From NCBI RefSeq assembly GCF_018889955.1, contig NZ_CP076545.1, positions 62,001 to 126,000 on the forward strand: 64,000 nt of DNA. The letters run 5' to 3'. The notes under the pieces are model-generated. The model was not told the origin of the DNA, made no database searches, and saw only the letters and a list, made by a program, of their open reading frames with translations. Each line of letters opens with the position of its first letter. The stretch's first letter is position 1. Positions 46,194 to 64,000 of this stretch are shown in pieces. A program made the position numbers and the translations under genes. Origin of the DNA: Collinsella sp. zg1085. Lineage in GTDB: Bacteria > Actinomycetota > Coriobacteriia > Coriobacteriales > Coriobacteriaceae.

Positions 46194-46283
46194 GGAACAC
46201 CGCAAAAAAATTTATTTGAAAGCAGCTTAATCATGAAGGATAAGCTGGCAATATAATAATTTTGAAATATTTAGAAAATATTC

Positions 46284-46312
46284 TTGACAGCATATATTTA
46301 TCGTTTAACAAT
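46284..46312 (+). promoter_or_regulatory. Promoter of the ABC/Cys-rich peptide island
   Basis: TTGACA at 46284-46289, a 17-base AT-rich spacer and AACAAT at 46307-46312 form a good sigma-70-type promoter about 95 bases before the ATPase ATG. The surrounding 46200-46360 stretch is markedly more AT-rich than the flanking housekeeping genes. Confidence 0.6.
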
Positions 46313-46406
46313 ATATTTGTGTTAAGTGCAAGAAGGGTAGTTTATTAGTCCGCTTGCCGGAGACATGGGAGTATTGGGATACCTTGAGTATATGGGGTTG
46401 AGGACA

Positions 46407-47342
46407 ATGTCAGAAAACGAGGTTATCGAAGCTACTCATATTTCTAAGCGCTATATGCGTCGACAGGTGCTCAGCGATGTAACACTTACGGTGCCTGAAG
46501 GTGAAGTGCGGGCACTCATTGGAGAAAACGGAGCCGGTAAGAGTACCTTTATTCGTATAGTTTGTGGCATTGCTACAGCAACTTCAGGAACACTTAGCTT
46601 ATTCGGGCAAACAGGCTCCCGCAAACTGCGCCTTGCTCGTCGGTATTTGGGCTTTGTGCCCGATACAAGTGGTGCCTACCAAGATATGAGTGCCTTGCAA
46701 AACTTAAAAGTGCGCTGCACTGAGTGGGGTATTCCAACGACCGAAGCGATGCCTGCTCTCAAATTGGTTGGACTCGGAGATACTGGTAAAACACATGTAG
46801 GTAAGTTTTCTATGGGTATGAAACGTCGGTTAGATATAGCAACAGCACTTCTTGGCGATACCAAACTTATTGTTATGGACGAGCCTATCAACGGTTTGGA
46901 TCCTTTGGGAATTATTGAGATGCGCGATATTATTCATACACTTCATCACAAAGAGGGAAAGACAATTTTGCTTTCGTCGCATAATCTCAATGAGCTTGAA
47001 AAGTCTGCAACGTCGTTTTCGTTTATGAAAAAAGGCAGCATTATTGGTTATGCTGAAAGTAAAGAGATTGCTCAAATGCCAGCCCAGACACTTGTAATAA
47101 AGAGTTTTCGTATTGGCGCTGTGACAGATTTGCTTCACGCGCACTATAAAGACATACGATGCTTTTCGGTTGAAGAAAACACACTTTATATTGAGGGAAT
47201 GCTGCCAAATTCGGGTGAAATAGCAGAACTATTGTCGCAGCAGCAAATACCTTTCCATGAGATTTATTGTAAGAAGCCAAGCCTTGAAGATTATTACAAG
47301 GTAATGGTGCAATCGGCAGAACAAGCGTGCTTGTCCGCCTAG
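46407..47342 (+). CDS. ABC transporter ATP-binding protein of the peptide island
   Basis: A 311-residue ATPase of the CcmA/BcrA-type drug, peptide and lantibiotic transporter family. Walker A is GENGAGKST, the signature FSMGMKRRLDIA, Walker B LIVMDEPINGLDP and the H-loop LLSSHNLNELE. A C-terminal extension of about 95 residues (after 215) is typical of BcrA-like immunity or export ATPases. The ATG at 46407 (with GAGG) is preferred among several in-frame starts from 46365. Next come a Cys-rich peptide gene and two permease genes, which together would make a complete export or self-protection system. Confidence 0.92.
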   Translation: MSENEVIEATHISKRYMRRQVLSDVTLTVPEGEVRALIGENGAGKSTFIRIVCGIATATSGTLSLFGQTGSRKLRLARRYLGFVPDTSGAYQDMSALQNLKVRCTEWGIPTTEAMPALKLVGLGDTGKTHVGKFSMGMKRRLDIATALLGDTKLIVMDEPINGLDPLGIIEMRDIIHTLHHKEGKTILLSSHNLNELEKSATSFSFMKKGSIIGYAESKEIAQMPAQTLVIKSFRIGAVTDLLHAHYKDIRCFSVEENTLYIEGMLPNSGEIAELLSQQQIPFHEIYCKKPSLEDYYKVMVQSAEQACLSA

Positions 47343-47405
47343 TTTTTCTTGGACTTAACCAACTGGTTAAGAAAAGTAGGTTCATACAAGAGAAAGGAAA
47401 AGGTT

Positions 47406-47555
47406 ATGAACTTTTACGTACCAACATACACAGATCCATATGGAGGAATATGCGACAGACTTTGCAAAAGCAAGGGTAAGTGCAATACCAAAGCAAAATG
47501 CTCAAGTTTTAATACATGCGTTGCTTATAGGTCTTGCATAATTTATTTTAAGTAA
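47406..47555 (+). CDS. 49-residue cysteine-rich peptide, candidate RiPP/bacteriocin precursor
   Basis: A small gene with an AAAGGAAAAGG site directly upstream. Six cysteines lie at 16, 20, 26, 32, 38 and 44, so the last five are spaced exactly six residues apart. They sit within a basic, Lys-rich core that ends IIYFK. A Gly-Gly pair at 13-14 (DPYGG) separates a 14-residue N-terminal part from the cysteine-rich part, as in leader/core boundaries. The regular CxxxxxC ladder resembles radical-SAM-modified thioether peptides (ranthipeptide/SCIFF group). The gene lies between an ABC ATPase and its permeases, and a maturase-like remnant lies downstream. Whether it is modified or active is unknown. 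Confidence 0.7.
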   Translation: MNFYVPTYTDPYGGICDRLCKSKGKCNTKAKCSSFNTCVAYRSCIIYFK

Positions 47556-47578
47556 ATTTATAGCTATTGTATAGGATT

Positions 47579-47637
47579 AAACACTGCAGTCGTTTTAATA
47601 CTGACAGTAAGTGGTGCTAAGACGCGCTGCAGTGTTT
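47579..47637 (+). terminator. Inverted repeat after the peptide gene
   Basis: AAACACTGCAG (47579-47589) pairs exactly with CTGCAGTGTTT (47627-47637) across a 37-base loop and is followed by TTCA. It may attenuate transcription between the highly expressed peptide and the permease genes. Confidence 0.45.
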
Positions 47638-47704
47638 TCAAGCTTCAACGGCTAACTGTCCCTAATCAATTATCCGAAAAGAATTTATAGAAGGAGGGGT
47701 TATT

Positions 47705-48574
47705 ATGATAAAAACGCTACGCGCTCATTTAAGGCGTGAGTTTTATATTGCCCCAATTCGGGCTTGCATGATATGTTCATTCGTCCTTGGGGTACTGCTC
47801 ACCTTGAATCCTTTTCAAATAATTGCATTAGATGAATGGCGAAGTCCTGAATTAACAGCACAAGTAGGAAAAGCTCTTGTACTTGCTACAAATGTTGCAA
47901 ACGCTACACCACTTGGGCTTGAGGCAGTAAGGACAGGCATGTTTAGCCTTATAGGCGCAATACCACTCTGCGTGATTATAGCGGCTTTTACAGCAGGGCA
48001 TGATGGTAAGCTTGCAAGGAGCTACATAGGACTTTCCCGTTCGGGTTCCATAATTTCAGAATACGTTTCTAAGCTTTTCACAGCATTTATAGTAAGTTAT
48101 GTAATGAGCTTCTGTATGACCTTTTTTCCTTTTATAGGGGCTTTGTGTCGTTACAAGCTCGGTTTTGATGCGGTAAGTTTTGGAATCTATGGTTTTTGCA
48201 TTCTCCTATGGGCATGTTTGTTACTCTGTATCATTGCAATGACGCAGCTCGCATGCTATATAACGGACAGCATCTTGATTTCTAGCAGCATAATGATTGC
48301 ACTTATTGTTTTATCAGGATTAGATTATATGTATATTACTGGAAATTGGGCGCGAGCAGATTTAGATATTTATAGCTGGATGTTTAATTTTCCCGGCCCG
48401 TATGTGGCACATCTCATAAGTCTTGTGTTTGAGATTTTGCTGCGTACTACTACAAATGCCATTGCTATTTCTCGTATAACAACAGATTTAATACTGTTGT
48501 ACTGTGTTAAAGCGTTTTCATTATGCTCAACTATATCTATAGCAGTATGTTATTTAAAAAGGAGTCTATCATGA
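47705..48574 (+). CDS. ABC-2-type permease 1 of the peptide island
   Basis: A 289-residue membrane protein with six predicted hydrophobic segments (MICSFVLGVLLTLNPF, SLIGAIPLCVIIAAFTAG, a central pair at about 140-190, LISSSIMIALIVLSG and a C-terminal pair). The short extracytoplasmic region after the first segment and the layout match BcrB/ABC-2-type permeases. AGAAGGAGGGG precedes the ATG. The stop overlaps the next gene's ATG (ATGA). It is expected to pair with the ATPase at 46407. The sequence is divergent and no closer family is recognised. Confidence 0.75.
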   Translation: MIKTLRAHLRREFYIAPIRACMICSFVLGVLLTLNPFQIIALDEWRSPELTAQVGKALVLATNVANATPLGLEAVRTGMFSLIGAIPLCVIIAAFTAGHDGKLARSYIGLSRSGSIISEYVSKLFTAFIVSYVMSFCMTFFPFIGALCRYKLGFDAVSFGIYGFCILLWACLLLCIIAMTQLACYITDSILISSSIMIALIVLSGLDYMYITGNWARADLDIYSWMFNFPGPYVAHLISLVFEILLRTTTNAIAISRITTDLILLYCVKAFSLCSTISIAVCYLKRSLS

Positions 48575-49404
48575 CTTTGCGGCATTTACTTAGTTCTGAA
48601 TCTAAAATTGCAAGATATAAAAAGGTATTAGGTATTGTAGCTGCATCTTACTTACTCATTTGCGTACTACTAGTTCTTGCTCATGATCAATCGCATATTG
48701 CACCTCTTCATAGAACCAATGGGTATATTTTATACATGCAAACATCCCTTGAAGGCTATCTGATGGGTTTTTTCCCAACACCAACCATGCATGGAATTGG
48801 CGGGTCGTGGTATGAACATACAGTTGTTACTGCACCATTGGCGCATGCATATTTTTTACCCTTTATTGCTATTGCTCTTGGAGCCTGGGTATGCGAGCGT
48901 TCCTTTTTTAATAATATCTCAGGCATGAGTGTATCGCGCGGCATAGGCTTGGTAAAGACAGTAATTGCTCAAGGTCTTGTTCATGCAGCAGTTTTGATGG
49001 CAGCATTTGCTATATACAGCATTTTATATGCACTTACAATGCCTTATATCTTTCATGTTGGGATGACTGTAGATGAATGGCCAGACTTTTGGTTTCGCCT
49101 ACTTTTATGCTTAGAAGTTGTTGCATCGTTAGGTTTTAGCATATCAGCTGTGATGGGCATGTTTGGTCGTGGAAAACTAATCATGATGGTATTAGTAGGA
49201 ATTTTTTTGTTCCAGTACATCATTACCGATTTCTTCCCTCATGTTGAAGTCAACTTATTTATGGGCATTCTCATGAAGATATGCAGTCCAGAAATTCTTG
49301 AACCTGTTCATCCATTCATACATTTGTACGGTATTTTATCGGGATTTGTTTTAGTTACGCCGTTTGCTGGTGTGGCATGGGTGCTTCAAAAAATGAAAGG
49401 ATAG
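48571..49404 (+). CDS. ABC-2-type permease 2 of the peptide island
   Basis: A 277-residue membrane protein with six or seven hydrophobic stretches (VLGIVAASYLLICVLLVLAH at the N-terminus, HAYFLPFIAIALGAWVCERS, GLVHAAVLMAAFAIYSILYA, and so on). The ATG at 48571 is overlapped by the previous stop and has AAAGGAG. Two distinct permeases next to one ATPase is the pattern of lantibiotic-immunity (LanFEG) and BcrABC-like systems, which supports export or self-protection. Thirteen bases after its stop begins the short maturase-like frame. Confidence 0.75.
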   Translation: MTLRHLLSSESKIARYKKVLGIVAASYLLICVLLVLAHDQSHIAPLHRTNGYILYMQTSLEGYLMGFFPTPTMHGIGGSWYEHTVVTAPLAHAYFLPFIAIALGAWVCERSFFNNISGMSVSRGIGLVKTVIAQGLVHAAVLMAAFAIYSILYALTMPYIFHVGMTVDEWPDFWFRLLLCLEVVASLGFSISAVMGMFGRGKLIMMVLVGIFLFQYIITDFFPHVEVNLFMGILMKICSPEILEPVHPFIHLYGILSGFVLVTPFAGVAWVLQKMKG

Positions 49405-49416
49405 GGAGAGGATATT

Positions 49417-49515
49417 ATGAAAGCATCACGCTTTAATATTGAATATTTTGATAACGATGAATACATTATTATGAATGCACGAAGTGGCCAGGTTGTTGGA
49501 TTAAACAGTGAATAA
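49417..49515 (+). pseudogene. 32-codon remnant resembling a radical-SAM/SPASM peptide maturase N-terminus
   Basis: GGGAGAGGA precedes an ATG whose 32 codons (beginning MKASRFNIEYFDNDEY and ending NARSGQVVGLNSE) match the typical opening of SPASM-type peptide maturases: a FNIE-type start, acidic middle, then N-A/T-x-(S/T)-G and a hydrophobic-N/D-E ending. A TAA then stops it, where such proteins would continue for 350-450 residues. The start and ribosome-binding site look intact. Confidence 0.5.
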
Positions 49516-49590
49516 CGACTGGTGCTCGTGGTTACGCATGATGACGCTTTGCTTGCTGCATGTGATGAGGTACTGGAACTTAGAACATAG
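49516..49590 (+). pseudogene. C-terminal remnant of an ABC-transporter ATPase
   Basis: In frame immediately after the TAA comes RLVLVVTHDDALLAACDEVL, then ELRT and a stop. The VTHD H-loop followed by ...A..CD.VL.L is the usual last 25 residues of small exporter ATPases of the LolD/MacB type. It has no start or ATP-binding part. The join to the maturase-like remnant suggests one deletion removed the rest of the maturase and most of a second ABC ATPase. Confidence 0.5.
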
Positions 49591-49674
49591 CTTATGTGTG
49601 AAAGTACGTGAAGATAGAAACCGGTATTATTGGGGAGGTGTAAGGGATAGAAGATGCGTCCAGGAGTAGAGGAC

Positions 49675-50229
49675 ATGAATAATCTTGAGAAAGTCGAAGC
49701 ATCTACACGACTTATGAAGCGTCTCGGTATAGGGATAGCAGTTTTTGCAGTCGGTATGTTCGGGTTGTTTCTTTTTATTGGTGCAGCTGTATTGTATGCG
49801 CTTGTGACAAATACTCTTGAAGGCAGTGCTTCAGCTGCGATTCATGCCGGTAACCTCGAGCTGCACGTTCTGTATGCTTGCATTTTCTTTATCGGTTTAT
49901 TAGGAGCTGCAAGTATTCTCGTGAGCATTGGTTTCAGTATGTACAAGGGAAGCTCACCATTTACTGTTGGTCATGCCCGAGGGATAGCAATCCTTGGTTG
50001 TTTATTCTTATGTAATGCCTTAATCAGCCTATTTAACAGCGGCCGTATAGAGTTTTCGTTTTTTGGTGGAAGTATTTTCTTTTTCCCACACTCGCTTTAC
50101 TTTGAATTTTCATCAGGCGATATGGCTTTTGACTTTGGTTCTGTGCTCGCAGCAATGTTTCTTTTTGTTCTCGCGCTAGTTTGGTGGTATGGAACGATTA
50201 TTCAAGAGCAGACGCAGGACTTGGTATAG
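49675..50229 (+). CDS. DUF2975-type membrane protein
   Basis: A 184-residue protein with four hydrophobic segments (GIAVFAVGMFGLFLFIGAAV, LYACIFFIGLLGAASILVS, AILGCLFLCNALISLF and a C-terminal pair member FLFVLALVWWYG), plus a conserved SPFTVGHARGIAILG turn typical of DUF2975. AGGAGTAGAGG precedes ATG 49675; an in-frame ATG at 49654 contains that site. It is followed after three bases by a small XRE regulator, the normal partner of this family. Function is unknown. Confidence 0.82.
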   Translation: MNNLEKVEASTRLMKRLGIGIAVFAVGMFGLFLFIGAAVLYALVTNTLEGSASAAIHAGNLELHVLYACIFFIGLLGAASILVSIGFSMYKGSSPFTVGHARGIAILGCLFLCNALISLFNSGRIEFSFFGGSIFFFPHSLYFEFSSGDMAFDFGSVLAAMFLFVLALVWWYGTIIQEQTQDLV

Positions 50230-50232
50230 GTT

Positions 50233-50565
50233 ATGGCTAATCACTATCTCATTATGGAATTGGAAACGATGCTTCTTGAAGCAGGAAAGTCAAGCTCAGA
50301 TATCATTCGTGCAACAGGGCATACCGCTGCAAATATCTCAAAGTTAAAGAATGGTAAGGTGCGGGCTATTCGTTTTAAGACGCTTTTGGATATTTGTGAA
50401 GAGCTTAATTGTCAGCCAGGCGACATTATTAAATGCGTTACTGAGGAAGAGCTTGAGGCACTTGCAGTTGAGCGGGCGCGCAATGCTGTTGAGCGCATGA
50501 AAGGTGATAGTTCTAAATTAAATTTACCTACAAATGTATATGCTGTTGATTTAAGTGACGAATAG
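50233..50565 (+). CDS. XRE/YozG-type HTH regulator
   Basis: A 110-residue HTH protein. The HTH_26-like core is SSSDIIRATGHTAANISKLK and it continues LLDICEELNCQPGDIIKCV, the signature ending of YozG-like regulators. The C-terminal 40 residues are charged and helical. It overlaps nothing but follows the DUF2975 gene after three bases, so the pair is one unit. Such pairs are widespread in Gram-positive bacteria and usually autoregulate. Confidence 0.88.
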   Translation: MANHYLIMELETMLLEAGKSSSDIIRATGHTAANISKLKNGKVRAIRFKTLLDICEELNCQPGDIIKCVTEEELEALAVERARNAVERMKGDSSKLNLPTNVYAVDLSDE

Positions 50566-50679
50566 ACTAGGTAGTTCATACGTGCATGTATGAGTAGCGA
50601 AAAATAATAATCCTTGAAGCGGATGCGGCAGATTAGAAGTACGTAGCTGCAGAAATTAGACCTTAGAGCACGCAGATTA

Positions 50680-50709
50680 AGACGTGAGCAGCCGCTACAC
50701 GTCTTTTCT
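50680..50709 (+). terminator. Terminator upstream of metA
   Basis: AGACGTG (50680-50686) pairs with CACGTCT (50698-50704), followed by TTTCTT. It lies 115 bases after the XRE gene and about 105 before metA, and could end the island's transcription. No SAM riboswitch was recognised in this gap. Confidence 0.55.
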
Positions 50710-50814
50710 TGCAGGCTCAGATTTCGGGTAGATAACAGAAGCGACGCTTCACATAATAGTGCCTTGCGCTGACGTAGGATATGATTATTCAAACGAGTTT
50801 GTAAGAGGAGAACT

Positions 50815-51765
50815 ATGCCAATAAGAATTCCTGATGCCCTGCCTGCCACGAGCGAGCTTGAGCACGAGAACATTTTTGTAATGACAGAGTACCGTGCGCT
50901 GCATCAGGACATTCGTACGCTACGCGTGCTTATTTTGAACCTTATGCCTACAAAGCTTGCCACCGAAACACAGATTATGCGCAAGCTTTCAAATACCCCC
51001 TTGCAAATTGAAGTTGAGCTTTTGCGAACAAAAACCCATGAAGCAAAAAATGTTTCTGAACATCATTTAGAGGCGTTTTATCGAACCTTTCGCGATGTTG
51101 AGTTTGACCACTACGACGGCCTGATTATTACGGGCGCACCGGTTGAACAGCTTGAGTTTGAAGATGTTGATTATTGGGATGAACTCGTTCAGATTATGGA
51201 TTGGTCAAAGACACACGTACATTCAACCTTGCATATCTGCTGGGGAGCACAGGCAGGTTTATATCATCACTACGGTATTCAGAAATATCCTTTGCCACAA
51301 AAAGCCTCCGGTGTATTTGAACACACCTTGGTAAAGCCTCATTCTCCCTTGGTACGCGGTATTGACGACTCATTTAGGGCTGTTCACTCACGCAATACTG
51401 AGGTTCGGCGTGAAGATGTTGAGGCTTGTGACGAGCTAGAGATTATTGCTGAGTCTGATGAAGCGGGCCTCTATATTGTAAAGAGCGTTGATAGTCAAAA
51501 CTTTTTTGTCTTTGGTCACCCGGAGTACGATGCCGAGACCTTACGTTTAGAGTATGAGCGTGACTGTGCTCATAATGTTCCGGTTGAGGTTCCCAAACAT
51601 TATTTTCCCGGTGATAATCCGCAGGCTACACCGCGCAATACATGGCGAAGTGCAGCACAGCTGCTCTATACCAATTGGCTGAACTACTACGTATATCAAA
51701 CAACACCCTATGATTTGCGTGAGATTGGTCGCGATGCGCGAAATCGTTCAGGGCTTTGTTTGTAG
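50815..51765 (+). CDS. metA: Homoserine O-acetyltransferase (MetA family)
   Basis: Enzyme for the first committed step of methionine synthesis, 316 residues. The glutamine-amidotransferase-like fold carries the catalytic cysteine at 142 in [16 protein letters not shown], a His/Glu pair in [11 protein letters not shown], and [18 protein letters not shown]. Residue 111 is Glu, which in this family is known to specify acetyl-CoA rather than succinyl-CoA, so acetyl transfer is predicted. AGGAGAACT precedes the ATG. It stands alone; other methionine genes are not in the window. Confidence 0.95.
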
Positions 51766-59742: not shown

Positions 59743-60024
59743 ATGGCTACAACTAATATTAGTATTCGTATGGAAGAGAGCTTGAAAAAGGAAGCTGATC
59801 AATTGTTCAATGAAATGGGAATGAATATTTCTACAGCATTTAATATCTTTGTACGTCGAGCGATTCGTGAACGTGCGATTCCTTTTCATATTAGCCTAGG
59901 CGAGCTCAACCATGAGACTATTGCTGCTATGCTAGAAGCAGAGCGCATTGCAAAAGATCCAAACATTCCAAGCTACGTTACAGCTAAAGAAGCATTGGCA
60001 GCGGCACTTTGTGAAGACAACTAA
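59743..60024 (+). CDS. dinJ: RelB/DinJ-family antitoxin
   Basis: A 93-residue ribbon-helix-helix antitoxin. The N-terminus TTNISIRMEESLKKEADQLF and STAFNIFVRRAIRERAIPF are the DinJ/RelB signature. The C-terminal 25 residues form the toxin-binding tail. AAAAGGAGG precedes the ATG, with TACAAT (59716-59721) as the likely -10 box. Its stop overlaps the toxin ATG, the usual layout of the type II module, and the pair should repress its own promoter. Confidence 0.93.
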   Translation: MATTNISIRMEESLKKEADQLFNEMGMNISTAFNIFVRRAIRERAIPFHISLGELNHETIAAMLEAERIAKDPNIPSYVTAKEALAAALCEDN

Positions 60025-60302
60025 TGGCACATTACGAAATAAAGTTCTCCGCCCTGTTTCGCAAACAGCTTAAAGCTGCAAAAAAGCGCGGCAAGGTTCT
60101 CACTAAGCTGCAAAAAATTATTGACCTGCTTGCTGATGATACAATGCTGCCTGCCAAATATAGAGACCACGCGCTCGAAGGTAGATGGGTTAATCATAGA
60201 GAATGCCATATTGAACCAGATTGGCTGCTCATCTATTACAAACAAGAGGATGTTCTCGTCCTTACCTTAGTGGCGACAGGAAGTCATTCTGACCTCTTTT
60301 AG
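60024..60302 (+). CDS. yafQ: YafQ/RelE-family mRNA interferase toxin
   Basis: A 92-residue RelE-fold toxin that cleaves ribosome-bound mRNA. Family residues are visible: LPAKYRDHALEGRW, RECHIEPDWLLIYY (the catalytic His/Asp region) and the terminal TGSHSDLF with the catalytic His. The ATG overlaps the antitoxin stop. The toxin's own stop overlaps the end of the AbiEii remnant on the opposite strand, so this module abuts the breakpoint of the AbiE system. Confidence 0.94.
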   Translation: MAHYEIKFSALFRKQLKAAKKRGKVLTKLQKIIDLLADDTMLPAKYRDHALEGRWVNHRECHIEPDWLLIYYKQEDVLVLTLVATGSHSDLF

Positions 60303-61275: not shown

Positions 61276-61485
61276 ATGACGACCTACTACACCGAGCAAA
61301 AAATCATTGACGAAATCCACTCACACATCGCAAAAAACGTGTCAGATGCTCTACTGAGCCACCAGCTCATTAGCCATGATGAGTACCTTGCTTTGACATA
61401 CATCAATCAGATTCATTTCCCTTCGCTGTTTGCAGAAATAGCTCCAGAACCACTTGATATATCAGGCAGACAGAGTGATGTATAG
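61276..61485 (+). CDS. SHOCT-like small protein ahead of the serine recombinases
   Basis: A 69-residue protein starting MTTYYTEQKIIDEIHSHIA, with a SHOCT-like second half (LLSHQLISHDEYLALTYINQ). AGGAGACAAAAC precedes the ATG at 61276. The open frame begins 36 codons earlier without a site. Small SHOCT-like proteins commonly precede tandem large serine recombinases in integrative elements of Firmicutes and Coriobacteria. Function is not known. Confidence 0.72.
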   Translation: MTTYYTEQKIIDEIHSHIAKNVSDALLSHQLISHDEYLALTYINQIHFPSLFAEIAPEPLDISGRQSDV

Positions 61486-61510
61486 AAAGCGACTAGGAGG
61501 GAGTACGCAT

Positions 61511-63067
61511 ATGAAAAAAATCATAACCATCAATGCGAATACCACTGATAATACTGAGGTTTTAGGACTTCGTGTTGCTGCGTACTGTAGAGTTTCAACA
61601 GATAGTGCGGATCAAGAAAATAGCCTTGAAGCACAAAAGAAACACTACGAAATGCTTATCTCGAGTCACATGGGCTGGTCGCTGGTTGATGTCTTTTTTG
61701 ATTTTGGTATCAGTGGCACGAAGAAACACTCCCGTCCTGCCTTAAACCGTATGCTCAAACAATGCCGTCAAGGTCTTATTGACCGCGTCTTAACCAAATC
61801 CATCTCAAGGTTTTCTCGCAATACCACAGATTGTCTTGAAATGGTTCGCGAACTCACTGCGCTAGGCGTATCTATCTACTTTGAAAAAGAACAGATAGAC
61901 ACCTTGAAGATGGAAGATGAGCTATTTTTAACCTTACTATCAAGCTTTGCTCAAGACGATTCGTATTCCATCGCACAAAACCTCAGATGGTCTATTGCCA
62001 AACGCTTTCAGGCAGGAACATTCAAACTCTCCAGCCCACCCTATGGCTATATATGGAATGGTGAAAACCTCGTCATCGATCAGCACAAAGCACCCATTGT
62101 TCAAGATATTTTCACGTGCGCTCTATCTGGGATGGGAAGCAGTGCCATTGCTAAAAAGCTCAATGATGAGAACGTTTCACCTTGCAGAGCTACTCTGTGG
62201 AGAGACACTGCTATTCGCTCGATTTTGACCAACGAGAAATATACCGGTGATGTTATTTTCCAAAAAACCTATACCGATGATGCGTACAAACGCCACATAA
62301 ACAGGGGAGAAAAACAACACTTCCGCATAGCCAATCATCACGAGGCAATCATCACCCATGAAACATTCGATAAAGTGCAGCAACTTCTAAGCATGAGAGC
62401 GAGTCGAAAGAATAATCCTCAGGGTAGTACAAAGTGTCTTGTGCGCTACGCGTTCTCGGGAAAAATCTCGTGCGCAGTCTGCCATTCATCATTTAAGCGC
62501 ATCACCTACGGCAAGCAAAATACTGCCGTGAAATGGGGATGCACAGGTCACATACGCAACAAAGATGCCTGCCCAATAAAAGCGATTCCCGATGAGTTAA
62601 TCAAGGTTGCTTTTGTCACCATGTTCAACAAACTCATCTATGCACGCCAAAGAATCCTTACGCCCTATTTGGCTGATTTACACTCGAGTGCTCAGGACAA
62701 CTCAGCGCAAAGAATCCATGTGCTTACCAGCTCAGTAACCAACCTAGAGCAAAGCCTTAGTGACTATCAAAACTTGCTAAACGAAGGTCTTATCGACCAA
62801 GCCTTATACCTCAATGAATCAAGCATCGTAAAAAACAAAATACAAACCACCAAAATAGAAATCGAACACATCAAGCGAAGCATCGAAAACTCAGTCGACT
62901 TTGTCAAAGCCACCCAAGAACTCCTCGATAAAACCAGTCGAGCAAACATGCAACAAAGCTTTGATGAGCAGCTGTTTTTAGACATCGTCAGGCGCGTGCT
63001 TATACAAAGCCAGCGCGAACTGGTCTTTGAGCTTAAATGCGGACTGTATTTACCAGAAAGGATATAA
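61511..63067 (+). CDS. Large serine recombinase 1
   Basis: A 518-residue site-specific recombinase. The resolvase domain has the catalytic serine in [20 protein letters not shown] and the loop DFGISGTKKHSRPALNRML. The recombinase domain (about 170-270) contains PYGYIW and LTNEKYTGDVIFQKTY. A zinc-ribbon follows (FSGKISCAVCHSSFKR, then WGCTGHIRNKDACP), and a coiled coil lies near the C-terminus (about 390-480). AGGAGGGAG precedes the ATG at 61511. It should integrate or excise a mobile element together with the next two proteins. Confidence 0.94.
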   Translation: MKKIITINANTTDNTEVLGLRVAAYCRVSTDSADQENSLEAQKKHYEMLISSHMGWSLVDVFFDFGISGTKKHSRPALNRMLKQCRQGLIDRVLTKSISRFSRNTTDCLEMVRELTALGVSIYFEKEQIDTLKMEDELFLTLLSSFAQDDSYSIAQNLRWSIAKRFQAGTFKLSSPPYGYIWNGENLVIDQHKAPIVQDIFTCALSGMGSSAIAKKLNDENVSPCRATLWRDTAIRSILTNEKYTGDVIFQKTYTDDAYKRHINRGEKQHFRIANHHEAIITHETFDKVQQLLSMRASRKNNPQGSTKCLVRYAFSGKISCAVCHSSFKRITYGKQNTAVKWGCTGHIRNKDACPIKAIPDELIKVAFVTMFNKLIYARQRILTPYLADLHSSAQDNSAQRIHVLTSSVTNLEQSLSDYQNLLNEGLIDQALYLNESSIVKNKIQTTKIEIEHIKRSIENSVDFVKATQELLDKTSRANMQQSFDEQLFLDIVRRVLIQSQRELVFELKCGLYLPERI

Positions 63068-63071
63068 GAAC

Positions 63072-63500
63072 ATGACACACATACCCTTTGGCTACATCAT
63101 AGAAAACGGCCACATTAAAATCAACCCAGTACAGGCTAGGCAACTTAAAGTCTTGTTTGAAAGCTACCGCGACCACCAAGGTCTAAGCCGTGCCGGAAAA
63201 GATGCAGGCACCACCTTGACGCACTCGCGAATTGCACACATCCTAGCCGACCAACGCTACCTCGGTGATGACATCTATCCTGCCATCATTGACCAACAGC
63301 TCTTTGACGCAGTCCAAGACAAACGTCGTACCTTAAAAGAAAAACACCATATGACAGGATGGCGAAAAGAAAAGCACACACCCAATATTCCTACTGTGTT
63401 TCACATCCGTCCTGAGCAAGAACACTTTGAAAACATTCGAGAGCACGTCCAATACATCTACACGCTCATTGAAAGCGAGGACGAATCATGCCACAAGTAA
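63072..63500 (+). CDS. Recombinase-domain protein without a catalytic domain
   Basis: A 142-residue protein that resembles only the central recombinase domain of large serine recombinases ([59 protein letters not shown]) and lacks the catalytic serine domain and the zinc-ribbon. AGAAAGGA precedes the ATG at 63072, four bases after the first recombinase stop. It overlaps the next recombinase by 13 bases, so the three are translated together. It may be an accessory DNA-binding or directionality factor. Confidence 0.85.
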
Positions 63501-64000
63501 CCATCATCCCAGCAAAACCACAGCTGGGCAACCGCTCCAGCACAGAAGAAATCAAAAAGCTTCGCGTTGCCGCATACTGCCGTGTATCCACCGATACTGA
63601 AGAACAAGAAACAAGCTACGAAGCACAAGTCGAACACTACAAGTACTATATAAAAGCTCATCCAGAATGGACGTTTGCTGGCATCTATGCAGATGACGGA
63701 ATATCCGGCACAAACACCAAAAAGCGAGAAGAATTCAACCGCATGATTGAGGCGTGTATGGCAGGGGATATCGATATGATTATCACCAAATCCATCTCAC
63801 GCTTTGCCAGAAACACGCTGGACTGCCTCACATACATCCGTCAGCTCAAAGAACAAAACATTGCAGTCCTTTTTGAAAAAGAATCCATCAACACACTGGA
63901 CGCAAAAGGGGAGGTGCTCCTCACCATCATGGCAAGTCTTGCCCAGCAAGAAAGCCAATCGCTATCACAAAACGTCAAACTAGGTATTCAGTACCGCTAT
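63488..64000 (+). CDS. Large serine recombinase 2 (partial, runs off the right edge)
   Basis: 171 codons are visible. The N-terminal tail is followed by the resolvase domain with the catalytic serine in [40 protein letters not shown] and the helix [19 protein letters not shown]. It is related to, but distinct from, the recombinase at 61511. The gene overlaps the upstream accessory gene. The rest of the element (cargo, second end) lies beyond 64000. Confidence 0.94.

Follow-up and report, generated by a model that had tools for sequence, protein, structure and literature searches.

A cysteine-rich peptide gene in Collinsella sp. zg1085 as the probable remnant of a radical SAM/SPASM peptide cassette

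Does a small cysteine-rich peptide gene lodged among the genes of an ATP-binding cassette (ABC) transporter belong to a working pathway for a ribosomally synthesized and post-translationally modified peptide (RiPP), or to what is left of one? The question is raised by a locus of Collinsella sp. zg1085, in a stretch of 64,000 nucleotides (contig NZ_CP076545.1, positions 62,001 to 126,000; hereafter the window). A reading made from the letters alone (the sequence-only reading) saw here a RiPP with its export and immunity system. Re-reading the sequence bore out its description of the gene: a 49-residue frame, MNFYVPTYTDPYGGICDRLCKSKGKCNTKAKCSSFNTCVAYRSCIIYFK (47406-47555, plus strand), with cysteines at 16, 20, 26, 32, 38 and 44, a Gly-Gly ahead of the first and its own AAGGA-type ribosome-binding site. 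As described, an ABC ATPase (46365-47342) precedes the gene and two membrane proteins (47705-48574 and 48571-49404) follow it, and the AT-rich island is real, with a guanine–cytosine (GC) fraction of 0.384-0.427 in each of the four 1-kb bins that span 47001-51000; among the remaining 60 bins of the window a single one (61001, 0.410) falls below 0.43. As for the pathway, a precursor-type gene does adjoin an ABC system, and relatives do have maturase and exporter, but both are deleted in the window, so that a RiPP with export and immunity is likely the ancestral rather than the present state. We consider it probable that the island is the remnant of a cysteine-rich radical S-adenosylmethionine (SAM)/SPASM RiPP cassette, in which a regulated immunity module has outlived its bacteriocin and the precursor was left stranded. 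The locus cautions that a precursor adjoining an ABC system does not by itself amount to a working RiPP pathway.

Deletion scar and cassette architecture

The sequence-only reading captured the peptide and its ABC genes; it left the stretch 49417-49590 undescribed and the regulator pair at 49654-50565 unassigned, and both belong to the same cassette. The former stretch is a scar. Its first part (49417-49515, plus strand) keeps a ribosome-binding site and the first 32 codons of a maturase, MKASRFNIEYFDNDEYIIMNARSGQVVGLNSE-stop; its second part (49516-49590, plus strand) continues in the same frame with the last 24 codons of an ABC exporter, RLVLVVTHDDALLAACDEVLELRT-stop. Against four maturase N-termini the first remnant reached a summed score of 228 (shuffle mean 76), and against four exporter C-termini the second reached 283 (shuffle mean 79); in neither case did any of 2000 shuffles attain the score. 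Most simply, the maturase from about codon 33 and the exporter up to its last 24 codons would have been lost in one deletion.

The genome is available as one contig of 1.72 Mb, 99.93% complete. It gave no SPASM match up to E 10 in a search that was positive in all 14 control genomes (over the cut-off in 10), and no relative of the cassette maturase at E 1e-10; the 32-codon remnant is what the window has of a SPASM maturase. The 13 radical SAM matches in the genome are of other kinds, and the closest exporter relative is only 24% identical. The remaining ABC ATPase, a conceivable exporter in the sequence-only reading, is not that of the exporter; its best model, TIGR03740, which it matches below the cut-off, places it nearest to the protection type.

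Relatives (G numbers denote genomes, L numbers loci and contigs) show what the cassette looks like when complete. In G002, G038, G006 and G011 the order is membrane protein, helix-turn-helix (HTH) regulator, peptide, ATPase, permease 1, permease 2, radical SAM/SPASM maturase and ABC exporter, with a maturase of about 430 residues and an exporter of 539-563 residues. Maturase and exporter are carried by the cassettes L053, L044, L057 and L058, and exporters of different cassettes are 38-47% identical. Matches of permease 2 and of the peptide converge on the same loci in G002 and G009. Homologous islands with a radical SAM gene, for which the sequence-only reading had proposed to look, were found, and relatives pair the peptide with maturase and exporter, although several loci have no maturase. 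In Ca. Coprousia avicola (L059), where the contig begins just ahead of the maturase, the genes run maturase, exporter, membrane protein, HTH. The scar shows the same succession, and this arrangement was probably once that of the window too.

The peptide gene lies 5' of the ATPase in eight other peptide loci (G001, G002, G006, G009, G011, G026, G038 and G043) and 3' of it in the window. Tandem copying followed by loss could account for the changed order, an idea we draw from G011, where two peptides occur along with a second, partial ATPase. In Collinsella sp. 4_8_47FAA a partial second ATPase occupies L057 6689-7210 (plus strand), with the peptides on one side and the full ATPase on the other. 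The window peptide belongs to a Collinsella cassette that lacks a family name and whose precursors have no good NCBIfam match (best E 0.036 among those tested). A second radical SAM cassette was seen in G019 and G035 (L132 8250-8593 and L133 8400-8743, both minus strand), at a distance of some 20-25 kb from the orphan one, with two larger cysteine-rich peptides, an exporter and a maturase 39% identical to that of G002. On an uncultured Eubacteriales contig (L072 9443-16145, plus strand), eight small cysteine-rich peptides, several of them starting MKYxVxP, surround the matched maturase.

We surveyed 43 genomes of the genus with a regulator profile, leaving a weaker G021 match (9e-16) out of the counts, and obtained 16 strong loci in 15 genomes. 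The maturase is open in four (G002, G006, G011 and contig 62 of G038), split in one (G009) and missing or a remnant in 11. In G009 the two parts lie on two contig ends with inverted ends and a 4-base repeat, ACGA, as after transposon insertion; in this strain, C. aerofaciens MCC370, they occupy positions 1-80 of L054 and the end of L135, and the inverted ends read TGTTAGCGCCGG. Nine of the 11 losses have one junction in common, the window genome (G000) and G001 each have a scar of their own, and outside the genus G043 retains 81 maturase codons; with G009 included, we count five different losses. The peptide is present in eight loci (G000, G001, G002, G006, G009, G011, G026 and G038 contig 62) and absent from the other eight, which are without the maturase as well. 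G026 has kept the peptide and lost the maturase, and G038 has two cassettes, one including a maturase and the other devoid of both genes. Collinsella loci have lost the production half by several different routes and have mostly retained what is likely the protection half, which makes the ecology of producer, immune and sensitive strains testable in gut bacteria.

The precursor peptide and its cysteine spacing

Conservation of the 49-codon frame had been named beforehand as a point on which the sequence-only reading might fail, and it held. Searched singly against 148 genomes, the window peptide gave, apart from itself, one match below 1e-3, in G001 of the same genus (49% identity, E 2.3e-6); the homologue shares frame, start region and six cysteines at 48-49% identity. 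A two-row profile of both peptides, run over 396 genomes of the class, yielded matches below 1e-3 in G000, G001, G009 and G002 and failed to recover the peptide of G038. When the window was left out and the profile built from G001, G002 and G009, the window peptide came first among 1456 frames (27.2 bits, E 2.1e-7; runner-up 13.4 bits), and it stayed first after four more distant precursors had been added (15.1 vs 9.4 bits). A profile of these four alone (two from G011, one each from G038 and G043) ranked it 56th (E 3.5), so its kinship to the precursors of G011, G038 and G043 rests on locus context. Those of G026, G038, G043, G006 and G011 were located by position. Likeness to precursors that adjoin a maturase was found against G001, G002 and G009, and the G002 cassette has an open maturase. 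The window peptide had no match in NCBIfam and Pfam, and a scan of genome contigs with it alone gave 84 pattern matches, none of which was confirmed. We discarded a match in L003 (G039, E 0.008), which uses another frame inside a gene resembling, by eye, argininosuccinate lyase, and treated further weak peptide matches with E above 1e-3 as chance.

The equal spacing of five cysteines in the window peptide is unusual. At least five equally spaced cysteines (spacing 2-9) arose in 136 of 200,000 shuffles of the peptide, and such a run of five occurs in no other of the 567 open reading frames of 30-90 residues in the window. The ladder is exact in this copy, as the sequence-only reading had it; it does not mark the family, since spacings vary among the relatives: C-x3-C-x3-C-x4-C-x3-C-x4-C in G002 and x3-x4-x4-x5-x5 in G001, against x3-x5-x5-x5-x5 in the window. 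Judged from these sequences, the six-residue ladder is particular to the window copy and no family trait. What the close group has in common is the start M-[NS]-x(3,4)-P-x-Y-x-D-P-x-G-G together with six cysteines.

A strong hairpin follows the peptide gene (47579-47638, plus strand) and may act as a leaky terminator. Its fold z-score is -4.30 over 47570-47645 and -2.42 over the longer stretch 47553-47650; L053 likewise has a hairpin 3' of the peptide (z -5.15). Terminator-like sites in the region number 7, against a shuffle mean of 4.5 (standard deviation 2.1).

Transporter, regulator and the immunity question

The ABC ATPase (46365-47342, plus strand; its start may be 46410) belongs to PF00005 and is of protection type by its best model, TIGR03740 for lantibiotic protection ATPases (E 1.8e-55), at 188.1 bits and thus short of the cut-off of 309.75. 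Permease 1 (47705-48574, plus strand), recognized as an ABC membrane subunit by homologues at the equal cassette position, had no Pfam family over cut-off; permease 2 (48571-49404, plus strand), the other membrane subunit, has matches in 14 of the 148 genomes searched, its own included. Lantibiotic protection transporters, which we take to be those called LanFEG, similarly consist of one ATPase and two separate permeases adjoining a peptide gene, but the window ATPase scores lower and its permeases are without a named family. The enterococcal ABC transporter mr10EFGH is described in PMC10598978 as an immunity gene of several bacteriocins that is also present in some strains without bacteriocin; that case concerns another bacteriocin class and another genus, and immunity in the window is inferred.

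The ABC trio is uninterrupted in 13 of the 16 loci. In 21 pairwise comparisons among seven loci that lack both peptide and maturase, the ratio of nonsynonymous to synonymous substitution rates (dN/dS) was 0.04 for the HTH regulator, 0.12 for the ATPase, 0.28 and 0.27 for the permeases and 0.28 for the membrane protein, and the stretches compared, which include the shorter ATPase of G035, contained no internal stops. In these seven relatives the transporter (0.12-0.28) is kept under selection without bacteriocin genes, and if the junction common to nine loci was inherited, the measured divergence postdates the loss. Matches of ATPase, exporter and maturase in PADLOC look like generic ATPase and radical SAM matches and were not taken as defence.

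Behind the scar lies the regulator pair. The HTH_26 regulator (50233-50565, plus strand; PF13443, E 5.4e-18) shares 59-79% identity with its counterparts in six other loci. Its partner, a small membrane protein (49654-50229, plus strand), could be aligned across six loci at 25-31% identity to the window protein, which has no Pfam match up to E 10; a provisional label, DUF2975, was dropped after no DUF2975 match appeared in six members. Ahead of the ATPase, a promoter-like site TTGACA-17-AACAAT (46284-46313, plus strand) has a palindrome, TATYG-N5-CRATA (46299-46313), over its second hexamer, and this is the candidate operator with which the regulator might pair. Within the window the exact palindrome is found at this one place. 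Other loci have it ahead of the peptide (L053, L044, L054 and L009) or ahead of the ATPase (L048), and a second match is found near the start of the membrane-protein gene in L053, L048 and L054; an exact match is absent from L043, L042, L057, L059, L061, L129 and L131. Several of these sites had already been seen when the motif was defined. The region has no excess of promoter-like sites (8, shuffle mean 13.2), and Rfam gave no match at gathering score in the window.

Taken together, the remnant reading would run as follows. The sequence shows that the production half is deleted and that the precursor, the ATPase with its two permeases, and the membrane-protein/HTH pair remain open. The precursor, if made, would be neither cross-linked nor exported by a system of its own. 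The regulator would act at the palindrome ahead of the ATPase, and the trio would protect the cell from the mature peptide of related producers, so that the strain would be an immune non-producer. Several points weigh against this picture. The precursor frame is undamaged, although nothing would oblige a pure relic to stay so, and the nine losses with a common junction are probably one event. The 21 dN/dS pairs are non-independent, and the selection figures come from relatives, with no close relative of the window locus among the loci at hand. The protection model matches the ATPase below cut-off, and the permeases match no family. Nor is the transporter kept everywhere, the G042 ATPase being divided between two contig ends and the G035 match ending at residue 215 of 241; the G001 cassette moreover looks dead, its permease 1 running into an insertion element at the contig end and its permease 2 changing frame.

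If the trio were a pump of general function, for envelope stress or peptide efflux, that only happens to adjoin RiPP genes, the ATPase score and the unnamed permeases would be accounted for. We regard this as unlikely, since the trio has the precursor on one side and the maturase on the other in the four cassettes with an open maturase, and it lies downstream of the same candidate operator. It is likewise rather unlikely that the unmodified peptide now serves as ligand or inducer of the ABC/regulator pair, or binds metal or forms disulfides, having been retained and remodelled following loss of the maturase. The frame did stay intact despite the loss of maturase and exporter, precursors also outlive an intact maturase in G001, G026, G009 and G043, and the regular cysteine spacing is unlike that of the relatives; yet the losses may be recent, and the ABC has no need of a precursor, because half of the 16 loci keep the ABC genes without one. 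We may speculate, with small expectation, that after maturase loss the precursor was recruited, unmodified, to serve the ABC/regulator pair as a signal or decoy, the ladder having arisen under the new role; if true, a RiPP precursor would have turned into a sensor ligand. Very improbable is a working RiPP or bacteriocin locus, its peptide modified and exported with enzymes encoded elsewhere: precursor, ribosome-binding site and hairpin are undamaged and the 13 radical SAM matches were not individually identified, but the genome gave neither a SPASM protein nor, at E 1e-10, a maturase relative, its best exporter relative is distant, and the scar holds both genes. Finally, an untranslated leader of the permease genes, to which the hairpin between peptide and permease 1 might point, is hardly credible given a homologue that keeps frame, start region and cysteines and a window-free profile that ranks the frame first.

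Related families and other features of the window

Among known systems, the SPASM maturases of TIGR04463 and Clo7bot (TIGR04334) come closest to the remnant cassette. They are the best models for the G002 maturase (291.9 and 264.6 bits) and also match that of G038 (283.5 and 261), in each case below the cut-offs of 525 and 600. Short cysteine-rich precursors adjoin the maturase there as in the relatives, whereas in the window the maturase is gone. A start of the form M-x-W-I-x-K/E-P is found in G002 and recurs in precursors that adjoin related maturases in Dorea and in a further member of the Lachnospiraceae. The sequence-only reading had looked to precursor hidden Markov models for a placement; the SCIFF peptide and Clo7bot peptide models did not match the window peptide, the latter (TIGR04333, cut-off 31 bits) up to E 10, and TIGR04333 matched two of 12 precursors of relatives, with a best E of 0.036. 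CefB, or 'Cys-every-fifth' (NF038107), gave 212.9 bits with the G002 maturase, under its cut-off of 600. Judged on the CefB side by the family name, regularly spaced target cysteines are a common trait; the window spacing is six and is not kept in relatives.

SCIFFs and ranthipeptides, as defined in PMC8326336, which for ranthipeptides names a thioether to a non-alpha carbon, resemble the window in its six cysteines within fewer than 50 residues and the relatives in their SPASM maturase. The SCIFF maturase model gave 76.5 of the required 425 bits with the G002 protein, and there was no SCIFF peptide match, so that membership of the SCIFFs is not indicated. The same paper reports SCIFFs as widespread among Clostridia, whereas the Collinsella cassette is patchy (15 of 43 genomes). 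In the literature, a search for Clo7bot gave no match, one combining Collinsella, RiPP and radical SAM matched only on iron-sulfur enzymes, and no paper listed for the TIGR numbers or the cysteine-rich peptide carried TIGR numbers.

Elsewhere in the window, a small gene pair at 59743-60302 (plus strand) resembles, by eye, a RelB/DinJ-RelE/YafQ toxin-antitoxin system. Large serine recombinase-like genes, likewise assigned by eye, occupy 61454-64000 (plus strand), and the GC skew turns negative at about 60 kb, a sign that an element may be integrated there.

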